Positions 3,657-35,777 of a DNA stretch of 39,976 nt are shown here, one piece after another. Numbering within the stretch: position 1 is the first letter of the stretch; each line of letters begins with the position of its first letter. The notes under the pieces were generated by a model. The model was not told the origin of the DNA and did no database searches. It saw nothing but the letters and a program-made list of their open reading frames with translations. The translations under genes and the position numbers were made by a program. The stretch comes from a virus: IMG/VR virus record IMGVR_UViG_3300042879_001376, positions 1 through 39,976 of that record; one strand, 5' to 3'.

Positions 3657-3709
3657 TTGCACCCGATGGGGTATAAGGTGGGCCATATAGGTTGACTTTA
3701 TACCCTATC
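3657..3709 (+). promoter_or_regulatory. Conserved intergenic hairpin element, copy 1
   Basis: The arms GATGGGGTATAAGG (3665-3678) and CTTTATACCCTATC (3696-3709) pair over 14 positions, allowing two G-U pairs, around a 17-nt loop. A flank GCACCCGAT precedes it. A second copy with the same arm and loop lengths lies at 6968-7018. No T tract follows, so an operator or RNA element is likelier than a terminator. Confidence 0.6.
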
Positions 3710-3740
3710 GGATATAATTAACAAACCAACACAACACGCG

Positions 3741-3989
3741 ATGATTCAACAATTAGAATGGGCGTTACCCCGCCTCGACAAAACGGTTGCCGCTTCGGTT
3801 GCGCACCGTGTCCACACGTTCCTGTTAGCGGGTCAATCCGCTCACATCGAATGCACTTCGGTACAACTGGGCTTGATTGCCCGTGACCTTTGCCAACACG
3901 TCACCGAACACGACCTCAACCACTCCCTGACCATTACGGAGGGGGAGACTACCGTAATCCTTCAAACACCAATACACACACAGCAATGA
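3741..3989 (+). CDS. Hypothetical protein (82 aa)
   Basis: A small protein behind hairpin element copy 1 and a 17-base leader segment (ACAAACCAACACAACAC) that is identical to the one before 3467. It is coupled by ATGA to the ERF gene, so it probably belongs to the recombination operon. It has alternating hydrophobic residues and several His residues; no family is recognised. Confidence 0.6.
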   Translation: MIQQLEWALPRLDKTVAASVAHRVHTFLLAGQSAHIECTSVQLGLIARDLCQHVTEHDLNHSLTITEGETTVILQTPIHTQQ

Positions 3990-6967: not shown

Positions 6968-7018
6968 GCACCCGATGAGGTATAAGGTGGGCGATACTGA
7001 CCCGCTTTATACCCCATC
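6968..7018 (+). promoter_or_regulatory. Conserved intergenic hairpin element, copy 2
   Basis: The arms GATGAGGTATAAGG (6974-6987) and CTTTATACCCCATC (7005-7018) have a 17-nt loop and a GCACCC flank, like copy 1 at 3657. Both copies follow a single small promoter-proximal gene and precede another small gene. Most arm differences keep pairing or make G-U pairs, which favours an RNA role. Confidence 0.6.
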
Positions 7019-7036
7019 TGGTATAAAAAACACACC

Positions 7037-27415: not shown

Positions 27416-27646
27416 ATGAAACACTTACTGGTTTACAAGTATTACGATGATAATGAACATGAGAACCGCCATGAGGTAGTTATCATCGAGTCAGAAAACG
27501 AACTTCACAAAAAGGTGAATGATGTCACCGTGGAGTGTCAAGGCAAATTTTTAGAAATCCTATTCGCTGGGGCAGTCCTTCACGAGTACGAATACAATCC
27601 CGTTGAGTACGTGGTAAAAATGAAGCCAAAAAGAAAGGCTTTATGA
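27416..27646 (+). CDS. Hypothetical protein (76 aa)
   Basis: First gene after the promoter, with an A/C-rich leader (CAAACACACAAACAA). An acidic N-terminal half and a basic tail (KMKPKRKAL). It is coupled by ATGA to the first sugar gene. It has no recognised family. Confidence 0.6.
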   Translation: MKHLLVYKYYDDNEHENRHEVVIIESENELHKKVNDVTVECQGKFLEILFAGAVLHEYEYNPVEYVVKMKPKRKAL

Positions 27647-28338
27647 CCCTCGCCTTTACATCCATTTCACCCCGACACGCAATCGGGGATGCTCAATTAC
27701 AGGCCGTGGAAAGTTGGTCAGCTTGCGGCCTCAAAGTCCTTTCGTTCAATAGCCCGTCAGAGATTGAGCAGCTACGGCCAACGTATCCAAGCGTTGAGTT
27801 TGTACCCGTTCATCACACAATGGAGGGGGTTCAGCGCGTTCCATACGTTCCTATTTCCGCGTTCATAGAATACGCCAAGCGTAACGGATTGGAGCAGGTA
27901 ATGCTAATCAATTCAGACATTGCCATAAACGACCCGCGTGGATTGGTGCAGAACTATTGCGGACGGGCAAAGGGCGGACTGATATTTGCAAGCCGAGAAG
28001 ACCACAACGGGGACGGACGGAGTAGGCGTTACATTCACGGGTTTGACGTGTTCATTATTCACCGCAATTACTACCATCTAATCACCGCATCCATGTTCTG
28101 TATGGGGCAGACGTGGTGGGATTATTGGATTCCTTGGCAGTTCATCCGTAACAATGTGAGCGTTACCCTTGTCAAAGAGCCTGTTTTTTTCCACCGTGAA
28201 CACCCTGTACAATACAGCCATGATGAATGGGTGCGCATGACCGAACACTTCCAATGGATGACTGGTCAATTCAAGAATCAACGTCCGCAACAGGTGAACG
28301 ATTCAGTTTTCAAAACCATAATGAGACACGCACGATGA
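27643..28338 (+). CDS. Glycosyltransferase-like protein (GT-A type)
   Basis: A 231-residue protein with SPRHAIGDAQLQAVESW at the N-terminus and VMLINSDIAI (87-96), where NSD takes the place of DxD that binds the metal and nucleotide sugar. The C-terminal half has many aromatic residues (YWIPWQFIRNN), as in GT-A acceptor sites. It is the first sugar enzyme of the cassette and is coupled by ATGA to the next transferase. Exact donor and linkage cannot be read. Confidence 0.65.
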   Translation: MTLAFTSISPRHAIGDAQLQAVESWSACGLKVLSFNSPSEIEQLRPTYPSVEFVPVHHTMEGVQRVPYVPISAFIEYAKRNGLEQVMLINSDIAINDPRGLVQNYCGRAKGGLIFASREDHNGDGRSRRYIHGFDVFIIHRNYYHLITASMFCMGQTWWDYWIPWQFIRNNVSVTLVKEPVFFHREHPVQYSHDEWVRMTEHFQWMTGQFKNQRPQQVNDSVFKTIMRHAR

Positions 28339-29027
28339 CAATAGACGTATTTATCCGCACCTACTCAAAAGATTTGAACTGGTTAGCCCATGCGCTGCGT
28401 TCAATTCAAATGAACGTGACAGGCCATAGACGGGTAATTGTGGCAATACCTAACGCGGGGCTGTTATCTCACCTCACAGCGGAGACGGTGATACAAGTTG
28501 AGGACTTGGCAGACGGGTACATCGGTCAGCAGCTTACAAAGATGGAGGCGTGGCGTTACACCGATGCCGATGCCGTTCTGTTCTGGGATAGCGATACCAT
28601 TGCGACCGAACCCGTTGACGTTTCCGAATGGTTGAAGGACCGCAAACCGCACGTATGGAAAACACGGTACTCCGAGATTGATACCCCGTGGCAGGGCATA
28701 ACGGAATACGCAGTAGGGTTTACCGTTGAATGGGAGTACATGCGTAGGATGCCGCTACTTTACCGAACATCTACCCTATTCAACGCCTGTGAGTACATGC
28801 AGGGCGTACATAAGGAGTCCATGCGCGATTACTTGGACGGGTTGCCGCATCGCTCCTTTTCTGAGTTCAACGCAATCGGTGCATTTGCCGAACGGTTTGA
28901 AGCGGACGACTATACCTTTGAGGACACTAAAGGGGCGGACATGCCGCGCAACAAATGCCGTCAATTTTGGAGTTGGTCAGGATTGGATTCAAAGGACTTG
29001 GCAGAAATCAAAAGCTACATAGGATGA
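28335..29027 (+). CDS. Glycosyltransferase-like protein (GT-A type)
   Basis: A 230-residue protein starting MTIDVFIRTYSKDLNWL, the beginning typical of GT-A family 2-like enzymes, with DADAVLFWDSDTI (77-89, DSD 85-87). It likely uses a nucleotide-sugar donor and a divalent metal. The start at 28335 is set by ATGA overlap; earlier in-frame codons lie in the neighbour. Two transferases in tandem suggest a disaccharide or two acceptor sites. It is coupled by ATGA to the first methyltransferase. Confidence 0.65.
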   Translation: MTIDVFIRTYSKDLNWLAHALRSIQMNVTGHRRVIVAIPNAGLLSHLTAETVIQVEDLADGYIGQQLTKMEAWRYTDADAVLFWDSDTIATEPVDVSEWLKDRKPHVWKTRYSEIDTPWQGITEYAVGFTVEWEYMRRMPLLYRTSTLFNACEYMQGVHKESMRDYLDGLPHRSFSEFNAIGAFAERFEADDYTFEDTKGADMPRNKCRQFWSWSGLDSKDLAEIKSYIG

Positions 29028-29584
29028 AACTACACGAATTGAAGACCCGTTACGACATTGGCCGCGTGTTGGATTCAATGGGGCTGACTAACGATGCCGT
29101 GGAGGTGGGCGTGGCGTTCGGTGAGAATGCTGAAATAATCCTCAACACGTCAAAGCTGAATCACATTTGGCTGGTTGACCTTTGGGACTACGTGCCGAAT
29201 GAGAACCCGTTAGGCTATGCCGATGCGATTAAGAACTGGACGGGGTGCATGAGATACTGCGCTGACAAGATGCAGCCGTTCGGTGAACGTGCGACCATGT
29301 TCAAAGAGACAAGCGTAAAGGCCGCGTCAACGTTTGAGGACGGGCAGTTTGACTTTGTGTATATTGACGCTAATCACATGCGCCCGTACATTGATAACGA
29401 CCTCAAAGCGTGGTTTAGTAAGGTAAAAACGGGCTGTATCTTTGGAGGCCACGACTACCACAACGTAAACAGGCCCGACTACGTTTGTCAGGTCAAAGAT
29501 GCAGTAGATGCGTTCTTTGCCGACAAGGACTACACACTACACATAACCGAAGACGAAGACCCATCATGGTATATCATAAAATAG
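29024..29584 (+). CDS. SAM-dependent methyltransferase (class I)
   Basis: A 186-residue protein with VEVGVAFGE (26-34, the SAM-binding loop after strand 1), VDLWD (51-55, acidic end of strand 2) and FDFVYIDANH (109-118). The pattern fits Methyltransf_24, a family often found in glycan and lipopolysaccharide loci. It is preceded by two transferases and followed by a second methyltransferase. Substrate: probably a sugar hydroxyl, by context only. The start at 29024 is set by ATGA overlap. Confidence 0.75.
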   Translation: MKLHELKTRYDIGRVLDSMGLTNDAVEVGVAFGENAEIILNTSKLNHIWLVDLWDYVPNENPLGYADAIKNWTGCMRYCADKMQPFGERATMFKETSVKAASTFEDGQFDFVYIDANHMRPYIDNDLKAWFSKVKTGCIFGGHDYHNVNRPDYVCQVKDAVDAFFADKDYTLHITEDEDPSWYIIK

Positions 29585-30240
29585 CCCCGAACCGAACCGT
29601 TGCTTTGATTGACGGTGATACTCACATTGGGAAATGGGTGATTGAGTCGGGCCGATTAGACCACGACCAAAACATGCTACCGTTATTGAACGCCTACATT
29701 CACAAAGGCTTCACCGTGGTTGACATTGGGGCGTTCATCGGTGACCATACAGAATACTACGTCAGCCGCGTGGGACGGACGGGCAAGGTTTACGCATTTG
29801 AGCCTAACCCCCCAGCGTTCGCATGTTTGGAGTACAACATGGCAAGTTACCCCAACGTACTTTGCATCAATGCGGGGGCAAGTGACAAGGGCGGTAAGAT
29901 TGGCATAGCCACAGACCCGAACGCGGGGGCAAGTCATGCCGTTGATGGCGGTGACATTCCCTGCATCACATTGGACGGGTTGAATCTGACCGAATGCCAC
30001 TTTATAAAGATGGACTGCGAGGGTATGGAGTTGAGGGCGTTGAAGGGTGCAGCTGGAGCGATTGCCAAGTACCGTCCCACGATGCTTTTAGAGATTAACC
30101 GTGGGGCATTGGAAAGGCAAGGCACAAGCGCGGAAGAGGTGTTCCTTTGGCTTTCTGCGAACGGCTACCGATACCGCAACATCTACACGAATCAAGGAAT
30201 AACAGACGCTCAACTGGATATTATATGCGTACCGAAATGA
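29566..30240 (+). CDS. FkbM family methyltransferase
   Basis: A 224-residue protein with VVDIGAFIGDHT (51-62), VYAFEPNP (75-82) and a later FIKMDCEGMELRALKGA, the set of FkbM/Methyltransf_21 motifs. Such enzymes often O-methylate sugars or peptides in exopolysaccharide loci. The start at 29566 overlaps the previous gene by 19 nt, and the stop overlaps the gmd start by ATGA. Two methyltransferases suggest two methylation sites or a multi-step glycan. Confidence 0.8.
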   Translation: MVYHKIAPNRTVALIDGDTHIGKWVIESGRLDHDQNMLPLLNAYIHKGFTVVDIGAFIGDHTEYYVSRVGRTGKVYAFEPNPPAFACLEYNMASYPNVLCINAGASDKGGKIGIATDPNAGASHAVDGGDIPCITLDGLNLTECHFIKMDCEGMELRALKGAAGAIAKYRPTMLLEINRGALERQGTSAEEVFLWLSANGYRYRNIYTNQGITDAQLDIICVPK

Positions 30241-31226
30241 GGGCGTTGATAACTGGGGTGGGAGGTCAGGATGGCAGCTACCTTGCCGAGTACCTACTAG
30301 GCAAAGGTTACGAGGTTCACGGAATGATACGTGCAAGTTCGGCCATTGTGCAGAACTCCGCAAGGCTGCGAACGTGCTACCTAAACCCGAACTTTCATAC
30401 CCACTACGGGGACATGACCGACCCGTTGAGCCTTGAAAGAATACTCCGCGAAGTCATGCCAAGCGAGGTGTATAACCTTGCCGCTCAAAGTCACGTTAGA
30501 ATATCCTTTGACGTTCCGCAATTCACAGCACAGACGGACGCGATAGGGGTGATTAACCTATTGGAGTCCATTAGGCGTATCTGCCCCGAGGCGCGGGTAT
30601 ATCAGGCGAGCAGTTCCGAGATGTTCGGCCTATCCGTGAACGCTAACGGCTTTCAGGATGAAGATACCCCGCTCAACCCTGTGAGTCCTTACGGGTGCAG
30701 TAAGGTATTTGCGTACAACGTGGCGAGGCATTACAGACGGGCGTATGGTATGCACGTAAGTAACGGCATTCTGTTCAACCATGAATCGCCAAGGCGGGGC
30801 GTTGACTTTGTGACCGCAAAGGTTGTAAGGGGCGCGGCCATGATAGCGCATGGGAAGGCCGATGTATTGGAATTGGGCAATTTGGACGCGTCACGGGATT
30901 GGGGACACGCAAAGGACTACGTAAAGGCCATGCACCTAATTACTTCGCATGACACGCCCAGCGATTACGTCTGTTCAATGATGGAAACGCATACGGTGCG
31001 CGAATTGTGCGAGGTCGTGTTCAATTACTTCGGAATGGATTACCGCGAACGAGTGACCATGAACCCGAAGTATCTGAGGGGCGAAGAACTGCCATACCTT
31101 AAAGGCGACTCAACACGGATACGAACGGAGTTAGGATGGTCACCCGAATACACCTTCACCACGCTCATTACTGAAATGTGCGAGCATTGGGTGGACGAGT
31201 TCAATGGGGTTGTAAGTGATAGGTAA
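30237..31226 (+). CDS. gmd: GDP-mannose 4,6-dehydratase
   Basis: A 329-residue short-chain dehydrogenase: NAD(P)-binding TGVGGQDGSYL (6-16), SSSEMFG (125-131) with the catalytic Ser/Glu, and PYGCSK (151-156) with Tyr152 and Lys156. This enzyme converts GDP-mannose to GDP-4-keto-6-deoxy-mannose, the first step to fucose, rhamnose or perosamine-type sugars. The start MRALITGVGG is chosen for ATGA coupling and fit to the family, over an in-frame ATG 12 nt earlier. No GDP-fucose synthase follows, so the host would finish the sugar or the keto-sugar would be used directly. Confidence 0.9.
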   Translation: MRALITGVGGQDGSYLAEYLLGKGYEVHGMIRASSAIVQNSARLRTCYLNPNFHTHYGDMTDPLSLERILREVMPSEVYNLAAQSHVRISFDVPQFTAQTDAIGVINLLESIRRICPEARVYQASSSEMFGLSVNANGFQDEDTPLNPVSPYGCSKVFAYNVARHYRRAYGMHVSNGILFNHESPRRGVDFVTAKVVRGAAMIAHGKADVLELGNLDASRDWGHAKDYVKAMHLITSHDTPSDYVCSMMETHTVRELCEVVFNYFGMDYRERVTMNPKYLRGEELPYLKGDSTRIRTELGWSPEYTFTTLITEMCEHWVDEFNGVVSDR

Positions 31227-31234
31227 AAGTTTAT

Positions 31235-31243
31235 TACCTTTGC
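31235..31243 (+). promoter_or_regulatory. -7 element TACCTTTGC before the structured RNA
   Basis: Exact TAnnTTTG match. Its T and A also belong to a small hairpin AGGTAA/TTACCT (31221-31226, 31234-31239). A start 5-7 nt downstream would coincide with the beginning of the first long helix at 31247. Confidence 0.55.
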
Positions 31244-31246
31244 CCC

Positions 31247-31630
31247 GTCCGTGCCAACGGTGGGGGTCAGCAGCAATGCGCCCCCAACTTGGCCCGACAT
31301 ACATACACGGGTGCTTTCAGTGTTTGACCCGTATCCGATGGCACGGATAACCAATCGAACAGTATTGAAAGTAGTGCAGCCCTAATCCGAGCAATGACTC
31401 CCGCGTGTCAACTCGGTCGATAAAGCAAACCCTCACTCTAAGGGGGAATGAAGTAAGGGGTGTTAAGGAGTTGCTGAACGGTGAATAAAGAAAAGCCGTT
31501 TATGCTTAAATCATTCGGAGTAAGGGTTCGCCCTTTGAATGATTGAAGAATTGGCCTTAACTGCGTTGCTTGCCAAACGGGTGATTCTAATAGAATTGCT
31601 TGAATAGACGCGGTGCGCCTTTGAACGAAA
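31247..31630 (+). ncRNA. Candidate structured noncoding RNA (two three-way junctions)
   Basis: There is no supported protein gene in 31227-31650. Domain 1 is closed by a 9-bp helix (31247-31255 with 31340-31348, one wobble) and holds TGGGGG/CCCCCA (31261-31266, 31281-31286) and ACGGGT/ACCCGT (31307-31312, 31327-31332). A linker hairpin has CCGAG/CTCGG (31387-31391, 31412-31416) with an inner TGAC/GTCA. Domain 2 is closed by GTTAAGG/CCTTAAC (31462-31468, 31555-31561) and holds AACGG/CCGTT (31477-31481, 31496-31500) and a long hairpin: AATCATTC/GAATGATT (31509-31516, 31537-31544) with inner AAGGG-TTCG-CCCTT. A further hairpin is ATTCT/AGAAT (31584-31596). Promoters flank the region. No known RNA family is recognised; tmRNA and RNase P signatures were not seen. 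Confidence 0.55.
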
Positions 31631-31637
31631 TCTTTTC

Positions 31638-31645
31638 TAACTTTG
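31638..31645 (+). promoter_or_regulatory. -7 element TAACTTTG, start-proximal
   Basis: Exact TAnnTTTG match, 5 nt before the ATG of a 14-codon peptide that is coupled to the portal gene. It probably drives the head operon. Confidence 0.6.
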
Positions 31646-31650
31646 CCCAC

Positions 31651-31695
31651 ATGGGATGCAACTGCTCAAAGCCTAAGCCCCGTCCTGCGAGATGA
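31651..31695 (+). CDS. 14-residue leader peptide before portal
   Basis: Reads MGCNCSKPKPRPAR and stops at a TGA that overlaps the portal ATG (ATGA). It lies 5 nt behind a perfect -7 element. The most likely role is to load ribosomes on a leaderless mRNA and couple them to the portal gene. The Cys and Pro/Lys/Arg content might matter by itself, but nothing shows this. Confidence 0.5.
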   Translation: MGCNCSKPKPRPAR

Positions 31696-33503
31696 GTATA
31701 GAACGGGTACGCGATGCAATAACTGACATCGTTCAAGCTGAGAAATCGGCCAACAAGTCAACGCCCCATTACTACACTACCTACGCCCGTGCTGTCAGTC
31801 AGCGTGACCAAATCATGGCCCACGCAGATACGGAGGTGTTCCCCGAACGTCTGTTCAAAGAACGCGCACCGAATCAAACGGATGAGCAACACAGATACGT
31901 CAAAGCCAATTACCGCTGCACGACAAACCCCGTTTGGCAGGATTATATGACCGTTATCGGTCGGACGTTCATAGACTCCAATTGGAGCATGAACTGGCCC
32001 GATGATGCCAAAGCTGACAACGGATTACAGGGGTATTGTGAGAATGACTTTCCGAAATACGGAAGCGTTGAGGCGTTTGTTAAGAACCTGCTACTGCCAT
32101 TGAAGGGCATGGATGCGAATGGGGTTATTGCCGTTCACCCGTTGCCTCCGAAGACCATTGAAAGGGAGAACGGTGAAATAGTCGTGGATGAAAGCGAATA
32201 CCTTGAGCCCGCTATCTTTTACTATTCTTCCGACCGCGTTCTGCTGCGTGACCCTGACCTATTTATAGGCGTAAGTTCCGAGCGGTCGCGTATCACGGTA
32301 GGGCAAGTTGAAAGGAAAGAGGGCCGCGTTATGTACGCCTACACGCCTGACACCATTTACCGTGTCACACAGATAGGCAAGAAAGAGAAACCCGAATACG
32401 ACATTTCGGTTTGGTTTGAACACAACGAGGGCGTTACCCCTGCTCATGAGTTGATGGGCAGCGCAATGATGGCAGAGGACGGGTCAATCTATTGGCGGAG
32501 TCCGTTTTACTTTGCCGTTCCTTTGTTGGATTATGCACTGACCACGCGGAACATTCTGCAAGTCAGCATAGCCAACAGCGCCTTTCCGTTCCGTGTTCTT
32601 CGCGCTTCACCTTGCGATTTCAAGGATGACAACGGGCAATGCATCGGAGGGGTTTACAATAACTTTCAGGACGGCAAAAAGTCCACATGTTCATCATGCA
32701 AAGGCGTGGGCCACAGAGTACCCGTTAGCCCAACAGGTGAATACCAATGGCTTGAGCCTGAGGGACTGAGTGAGGGCAAGGGAATGTCGTACAAGCCCGT
32801 TGAGTACATAGAGCCTGGGACTGGTGCAATGACATTTGTCCGCGAACAGGTGGACATTGATACCAACAAAGCGCGGGGCATTCTCCACTTGCACACGTCC
32901 GCGAACAAGGCAAGCGGTCAGGAATCGGCCACGGCTACGGAGGTGGCGATGGACTACTCAACGCAGTTTGCTTTCTTGCGGCCGATAGCTGAGCAGATAT
33001 TCGACCTTTTCGAGTGGATAATCAACAGGGTCGCATGGCAGCGTTACGGCAATTACGAACAAGTGCCGAACATTGTCCGTCCTCAATCGTTCGACTTCCG
33101 TTCGGAGGGCCAACTTTGGGCAGACCTTGAGACGGCAAGGAACGCGGGTGCGCCTCCGTTCATTATTCACAGCATCATGCACGACCTATTGAGCAACCGT
33201 TTAAGCAGCGACATTGACGCGCAACGGGTGGCCCTTAGTGTTATGATGGTGGATGAACTATTCACCCTGACAGACGCGGAGGTCACGGCACGAAAGGCAA
33301 CCAACACCGTTGAGCCGTGGCAGGTGGCGTTCCACCATGCGGCCTATCAGTACACCATGCAGCTAATGGCAGAGGATGTCAACTGGATAACCTTAGAGGA
33401 CAAAGAACGGGCGGACGCGTTGCGCGAATACGCAAAGGCTAAAGCCCCTGTGATACAAACGCTTGCACCCGCTCCCGATATTTTCGGTACATTTGGGGCG
33501 TAA
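31692..33503 (+). CDS. Portal protein
   Basis: A 603-residue protein in the place of the portal (before scaffold and capsid genes). Mixed alpha/beta with a long helical C-terminal part (IAEQIFDLFEWIINRVAWQRY and following), typical of portal stems and wings. It carries a predicted zinc-ribbon-like insertion: Cys308, Cys317, Cys333 and Cys336 (CDFKDDNGQC ... CSSCKGVGHR). It would form the dodecameric DNA entry ring. The family match is from layout and size rather than a firm motif. Confidence 0.75.
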   Translation: MSIERVRDAITDIVQAEKSANKSTPHYYTTYARAVSQRDQIMAHADTEVFPERLFKERAPNQTDEQHRYVKANYRCTTNPVWQDYMTVIGRTFIDSNWSMNWPDDAKADNGLQGYCENDFPKYGSVEAFVKNLLLPLKGMDANGVIAVHPLPPKTIERENGEIVVDESEYLEPAIFYYSSDRVLLRDPDLFIGVSSERSRITVGQVERKEGRVMYAYTPDTIYRVTQIGKKEKPEYDISVWFEHNEGVTPAHELMGSAMMAEDGSIYWRSPFYFAVPLLDYALTTRNILQVSIANSAFPFRVLRASPCDFKDDNGQCIGGVYNNFQDGKKSTCSSCKGVGHRVPVSPTGEYQWLEPEGLSEGKGMSYKPVEYIEPGTGAMTFVREQVDIDTNKARGILHLHTSANKASGQESATATEVAMDYSTQFAFLRPIAEQIFDLFEWIINRVAWQRYGNYEQVPNIVRPQSFDFRSEGQLWADLETARNAGAPPFIIHSIMHDLLSNRLSSDIDAQRVALSVMMVDELFTLTDAEVTARKATNTVEPWQVAFHHAAYQYTMQLMAEDVNWITLEDKERADALREYAKAKAPVIQTLAPAPDIFGTFGA

Positions 33504-34636: not shown

Positions 34637-34692
34637 AAGGTCTTTCTGGCGTTGTTTGCGGCCTACTGCGAACATCTAACCTTAAAGACCTT
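34637..34692 (+). promoter_or_regulatory. Hairpin in the capsid gene leader
   Basis: AAGGTCTTT (34637-34645) and AAAGACCTT (34684-34692) form a perfect 9-bp stem that ends 5 nt before the capsid ATG at 34698. CCTTAAA is also repeated directly (within 34680-34695). It could stabilise the 5' end of the capsid mRNA or set translation. Confidence 0.5.
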
Positions 34693-34697
34693 AAACA

Positions 34698-35777
34698 ATG
34701 TCTAACATTTGCGAACTCATTTCATGCGAAGCTATCCAACAAGGTTTGGATTCAGCCTTCGGTTTCAACAACATGGCCCCCGAAAACCTCGGAACGCTGG
34801 CCTATGTTTTTTCACCTGAGAACATTGCGGCTGCTCAAGTTACCGCTGTCACAGGCCGACCATCAAAGACCAACCCCGTTAAGGTCATCTATGACCAAAG
34901 ACTGGTGGAGGGCAGCGCAAGTGCTGGCCGTGGTGGTTGCACCATGACTAACGAAGAATGTGACCTTTCGCAGGTTTACAACTTCGACACAACTGACGCA
35001 ATCAATAACGGTTTCACGATAACACCGCAAGAACTTGCGGGAACTTGTGAGGAGAACAGCGCGTTTGTAAGCCGTAAGATTGCCAAGTATATCGAGTCAC
35101 TTGACCGTGACAACGCTGTGAAATTGGCACAGGCTATTGCTGCTCAGTACGGTGGATGGTCAGCCGACACAGCCAACGGACGCGGTGTTACCGTAACAGG
35201 TGGCGTTCTTCAGGTGAACGACTACATTCCGAACAGCAACGACCCTAACCCTGTGCTCATGCAGCAAATCCGCAAGGCTTTGCAGAAGTCACGCATTGAT
35301 GGTGGTATCGTTGCAGGTGGTGACGCGTTGGACGATTACTTTCAGCGTTCATTCAGCCGCAACGGTGCAGACAGCGGATGGGACGTGACCGAGATGGTTA
35401 GCCGTTACGGTTTCGCACCTATCTACGACCGTTTCCTTGCGGACGAACTTGCAGCCGTGAACGCTACTAACGCAGCCATTGGCCGTGGTGGTATCATCCC
35501 GCTTGTGTTCAACCTGTTCGCAGAGCCGTTCAATAAGATGAACGACAGCACGAACATTGGAGACGTTACCTTCTCACCATTCACAGGCATTCCTTACGAC
35601 CTTGTGATAACAAGGACTTGCCCTGAGGAGCCTTGGAGTGTGAAACTGGTTTCGACCGTGCAATATGTTACAATGCCTGACGACATCTACAAGGCGGGTG
35701 ATAACCTTTCAGGGGTTAAGAACCTTGCGCTGCTGAATGTCACTTGCACCGACCTCACTCCTTGCCAAGAGGCGTAA
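34698..35777 (+). CDS. Major capsid protein (putative)
   Basis: A 359-residue protein starting MSNICELISCEAI, following the scaffold, with a long untranslated lead and an A-rich start region, as befits a highly expressed gene. Segments such as FTITPQELAGTCEENSAFVS and a mid-protein helix (NAVKLAQAIAAQYGGW) are compatible with the HK97 fold but are not diagnostic. It is followed by a strong terminator, again typical of a capsid gene. Cysteines near both ends are unusual. Confidence 0.7.
   Translation: MSNICELISCEAIQQGLDSAFGFNNMAPENLGTLAYVFSPENIAAAQVTAVTGRPSKTNPVKVIYDQRLVEGSASAGRGGCTMTNEECDLSQVYNFDTTDAINNGFTITPQELAGTCEENSAFVSRKIAKYIESLDRDNAVKLAQAIAAQYGGWSADTANGRGVTVTGGVLQVNDYIPNSNDPNPVLMQQIRKALQKSRIDGGIVAGGDALDDYFQRSFSRNGADSGWDVTEMVSRYGFAPIYDRFLADELAAVNATNAAIGRGGIIPLVFNLFAEPFNKMNDSTNIGDVTFSPFTGIPYDLVITRTCPEEPWSVKLVSTVQYVTMPDDIYKAGDNLSGVKNLALLNVTCTDLTPCQEA

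Follow-up and report, generated by a model that had tools for sequence, protein, structure and literature searches.

The interval at positions 31227-31650 of a phage genome, between the genes for a GDP-mannose 4,6-dehydratase (GMD) and the portal protein, is noncoding, and we tentatively favor a structured RNA specific to this lineage, either a leader or a noncoding RNA, inserted between GMD and the portal promoter. The original prediction of a candidate structured RNA stands as to a predicted promoter of its own and an above-chance fold, whereas the two-junction architecture and the switch proposed with it were not robust. The window analyzed here is the whole stretch of 39,976 bases from one virus record, and positions refer to it unless a relative is named.

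A noncoding block between the GMD and portal genes

The host is likely a member of the Bacteroidota, as the terminase is similar to terminases from Flavobacterium, Polaribacter, Cellulophaga and Bacteroides phages and the + strand of the window has 17 TAHHTTTG elements vs one on the - strand. The affinity of the terminase also makes this promoter type applicable here. A portal-based search of genome_contigs yielded no prophage, and a GMD search of the same contigs returned only distant relatives from many phyla, which gave no clue to the host. The upstream neighbor of the block is GMD (30225-31226, + strand; PF16363, E 1.1e-115) and the portal gene follows at 31692-33503 on the + strand (phrog_7376, 1.9e-10; phrog_145, 5.8e-4). 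GMD ends a sugar cassette (27643-31226) that precedes the portal gene and is conserved in relatives, comprising, on our reading of the sequences, glycosyltransferase-like genes, a methyltransferase and an FkbM-like methyltransferase. GMD itself is variably present at the end of this cassette, being absent in relatives L002, L003, L004 and also L109.

As originally predicted, the block is free of genes, with 5-10 stops in each of the six frames and codon-usage scores ≤0 (vs 0.09-0.18 for real genes). Its description as the largest gap holds for intervals lacking a credible ORF in a crude gene map, but not for a map of genes of at least 80 aa, where longer intervals occur that contain smaller ORFs. 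Pfam gave no match above cut-off for the small ORFs of the block, no protein remnants were found in it by Pfam or six-frame codon usage, and a tRNA scan was empty. These results disfavor an origin by decay of a protein gene once located between GMD and portal: forward 44-aa ORFs are present in the block and L104, a relative, carries additional small genes in the same interval, but the stops, the missing coding signal in all six frames and the lack of a family match make such an origin improbable. L104 additionally carries a small ORF at 1529-1746 of its contig that is apparently interrupted by one in-frame TAG (MKTARQWFAQLPEPIRS before it, AIENAENLNAHH... after it).

Promoters at both ends of the block

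In Flavobacterium johnsoniae, transcription starts 4-5 nt after a -7 element of consensus TAHHTTTG (PMC6847099). The -7 element that had been described as placing a likely start at the first closing helix of the fold is indeed there: P1 (TACCTTTG, 31235-31242, + strand) fits this Bacteroidota consensus and lies 8 nt downstream of the GMD stop, as the portal promoter does in relatives. By the 4-5 nt rule, P1 would start transcription at 31247-31248 on the + strand, within 1 nt of where the helix of domain 1 (D1) begins; no ATG is found there. This inferred coincidence, which follows from a rule that takes no account of folding, is the strongest individual argument for an RNA. The second promoter predicted for the far end of the block was likewise confirmed as P2 (TAACTTTG, 31638-31645, + strand), the native portal promoter, which L002 and L003 share together with a few bases 5' of it (from 31631). 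P1 and P2 form a 21-nt direct repeat (76%) at the block ends with a spacing of 403 nt.

For P2 and the promoters of relatives, the same rule places the predicted start at the ATG of a micro-ORF or of the portal gene, i.e. on a leaderless mRNA. In the window, the leaderless micro-ORF (MGCNCSKPKPRPAR) occupies 31651-31695 on the + strand, with counterparts at the same place in L002/L003, in L005-type relatives (L005 4024-4138), in L104 (2376-2487) and in L004 (about 3889-3949). These micro-ORFs (MGCNCSKPKPRPAR; MARNIKIRPQDRPIRGRCGGKKSGC...), which contain Cys and basic/Pro residues, lie leaderless behind a promoter in the window, the L005-type relatives and L104, and possibly encode a conserved micro-protein. 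Tandem promoters precede the portal gene in L104 (2277-2376), where TAACTTTG is followed after ~50 nt by TATATTTG and a leaderless ORF, the ~50-nt spacer containing a GC hairpin and a T run.

As to the makings of a stand-alone noncoding RNA gene, the block has a predicted promoter of its own, judged by the fit of TACCTTTG to TAHHTTTG and by its location, which is that of the portal promoter in relatives, and lacks its own terminator, as no intrinsic terminator was found on the + strand. An 11-bp hairpin with a 3-nt loop in the minimum free energy structures (31578-31602, + strand) has no T run 3' of it and is not a canonical terminator. With no terminator after P1, both a leader of the head operon and a processed RNA are possible.

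Fold strength and predicted architecture

Compared with dinucleotide shuffles, the check proposed with the original prediction, the whole block folded at -138.8 kcal/mol (z -3.24, 0/500 shuffles reaching it), a signal moderately above chance in a region that had been picked for its structured look. The predicted transcript (31247-31650) gave z -2.72 (4/300 shuffles), so that the stability above shuffles expected of a conserved structured RNA was seen for both block (z -3.2) and transcript (z -2.7). By sub-region, D1 reached z -3.99 (31247-31348) or -4.3 (31247-31349) and domain 2 (D2, 31462-31561) z -3.47, with two of the four sub-regions, 31349-31461 (z -0.39), which contains the linker (31350-31461, + strand), and 31562-31650, being unstructured by z. 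In a genome scan the block was one of the three most negative among ~200 windows of 400 nt, and at 110 nt D1 was the fourth best locus (top 1% of windows), the other three being intergenic hairpins.

Other hairpins in the window deserve mention in their own right. A long near-perfect hairpin (CACCCGATGRGGTATAAGGTGGGC...CTTTATACCCYATC) occurs in two intergenic copies directly after stop codons, at 3662-3720 and 6968-7030 (z -7.4 and -5.4), with some differences in the arms; no exact copy of its core was found among 403 loci, and it is possibly a terminator, a processing site or a protein-binding site. Another strong hairpin without a T run (AAGGTCTTT...AAAGACCTT, 34637-34693, z about -5) lies within a short gap that precedes the gene at 34698.

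The + strand folded better than the - strand for the block, D1 and D2, and the - strand of D1 and D2 also folded above chance. That result, along with a 13-nt inverted repeat at the ends of D1, would suit an element acting as DNA (a packaging, replication or recombination site) and not as RNA, a reading that we consider highly improbable given the stronger + strand fold, a terminase ~14 kb away and relatives that do without the block.

The architecture fared less well than the fold energy. Both closing helices that had been described are present (GTCCGTGCC/GGCACGGAT with one G-U, and GTTAAGG/CCTTAAC), but they are within chance for a block of this size: two 8-bp long-range helices were seen vs 0.36 expected, as many being reached by 11% of shuffles, and 9% of shuffles reached the observed number of 7-mer helices. 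D1 (31247-31349, + strand) was predicted to form a long, rod-like imperfect hairpin at -48.5 kcal/mol in place of the proposed three-way junction, the two-hairpin junction being 3.2 kcal/mol worse. The TATCCG/CGGATA helix suggested as a switch is present in D1 and competes with its clamp; which of the two prevails varies with the precise 5' and 3' ends of the RNA, so that a switch may exist but is no robust prediction. The UUCG loop, held to be a stable tetraloop, is closed by a G-C pair (GGG-UUCG-CCC) and is not the extra-stable C(UUCG)G. The three-way junction of D2, a 7-bp clamp around two hairpins on the + strand, was recovered when D2 was folded alone or when the 3' end lay near 31600, and not in an RNA extending to 31651 or the portal gene (clamp p 0.87 in 31247-31600 vs 0.02 in 31247-31651). 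With a 3' end at 31651 or beyond, clamp probabilities were 0-0.5 for D1 and 0-0.17 for D2, and the folding model thus suggests that both closing helices would weaken or dissolve in longer transcripts.

Relatives and origin of the block

A look at the GMD-portal junction of related phages had been proposed, and the block was not found in the contigs of relatives. The two closest (L002 and L003, portal 97% identical) have neither GMD nor block: their homology breaks off at the GMD start codon (30224) and restarts at 31631, so that GMD and block form a single 1.4-kb indel and were perhaps gained or lost together. About 20 further contigs (portal ~45%, GMD 78% identity) carry GMD with TAACTTTG (TAAATTTG in two) directly behind it and no block, and then the micro-ORF and portal or the portal alone. 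Because relatives carry GMD, promoter and portal without it, comparison of the sequences indicates that the block is an insertion, found in this genome alone among those compared; its absence from all relatives also marks it as dispensable in the family. Recombination at the 21-nt P1/P2 repeat would be a simple way of adding it.

Searches beyond the junction agree with this restricted occurrence. No homologue was found by blastn in phage or plasmid records, nor in the whole contigs of 27 relatives, which held only 14-27-nt matches at chance level; covariance models of D1 and D2 recovered none over 37 records. Five 14-18-mer scans of viral contigs gave no homologue among the matches listed (checked by blastn and in part by nhmmer), and by a rough estimate such exact-word scans catch most 95%-identical homologues and about half of the 90%-identical ones. 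In Rfam no family reached its gathering threshold in the window, the only match being a chance one to sR36 (12.5 bits vs a cut-off of 55).

The close rival of a structured RNA is that the block is recombination DNA without a function, which the gain or swap of GMD and its flanks left behind as a scar or filler and whose structure is partly due to chance. We hold this to be possible, if somewhat less probable: it would account for the occurrence in a single genome, the one indel shared with GMD, the clamp helices at chance level and the modest transcript z, but it fits poorly with a whole-block fold that none of 500 shuffles reached, with the rank of D1 among the best 1% of windows in the genome and with a predicted start coinciding with that of D1, and such DNA is usually lost from compact phage genomes.

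Proposed role of a structured RNA

In weighing the structured RNA, we counted in its favor the fold z with its strand asymmetry, the noncoding status, the start/D1 coincidence, the positions of P1 and P2 and their repeat, and the missing ATG at the predicted P1 start, in contrast to P2 and the relatives, which are leaderless. Counted against it were a transcript z of only -2.7, domain folds that depend on the ends, the two unstructured sub-regions, the lack of a homologue or terminator, and its dispensability in the family. If the structured RNA is real, P1 would start it at 31247/31248 with its first base paired in the D1 hairpin. It could then form a ~400-nt structured 5' leader on a second head-operon transcript, made beside the leaderless P2 transcript, or trimming could turn the P1 RNA into a free noncoding RNA. 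In the leader case, it might determine how stable, or how well translated, part of the micro-ORF/portal message is. The tandem arrangement of the promoters points to recombination at their repeat as a way in which the cassette may have been added.

A bolder reading, which we regard as doubtful, is that of a new ~350-400-nt noncoding RNA family of Bacteroidota phages, carried as a promoter-flanked mobile cassette beside a sugar-modifying gene, with an RNA that begins exactly at a terminal hairpin and influences either the expression of head genes or the host. The block is at present a single-genome candidate. Should it prove to be a real RNA, phages with an otherwise apparently leaderless head mRNA would have acquired an orphan noncoding RNA in the form of a cassette at a promoter repeat, and this would show how Bacteroidota phages add structured leaders or noncoding RNAs.

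Comparison with known RNAs

The original prediction suggested that the block may be a packaging RNA. The pRNA of phi29 is likewise a noncoding RNA of a phage with a link to head functions; at ~174 nt, it serves the small phi29 ATPase. The phage here differs in having an ordinary large terminase of a common type (phrog_979, not the phi29-type ATPase) that lies ~14 kb from the block, and the block has no Rfam match. Its place before the portal gene is all that speaks for the suggestion, and with such a terminase and with relatives that do without the block, a packaging RNA of the phi29 kind is very unlikely. The GOLLD and ROOL families of large phage and mobile-element RNAs are similar in being long structured intergenic RNAs in phages; these families show conservation across many genomes, with covariation, whereas the block is known from a single genome and has no match in Rfam. 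Neither an Rfam aptamer nor a terminator, as would be looked for in a leader riboswitch or attenuator, was found. Structured 5' leaders of phage and bacterial operons differ from the block in that here a second, native promoter stands between block and genes and that the block has no known ligand, protein or conserved motif, but they share with it the arrangement of a promoter, a structured RNA and a same-strand operon with no terminator between.
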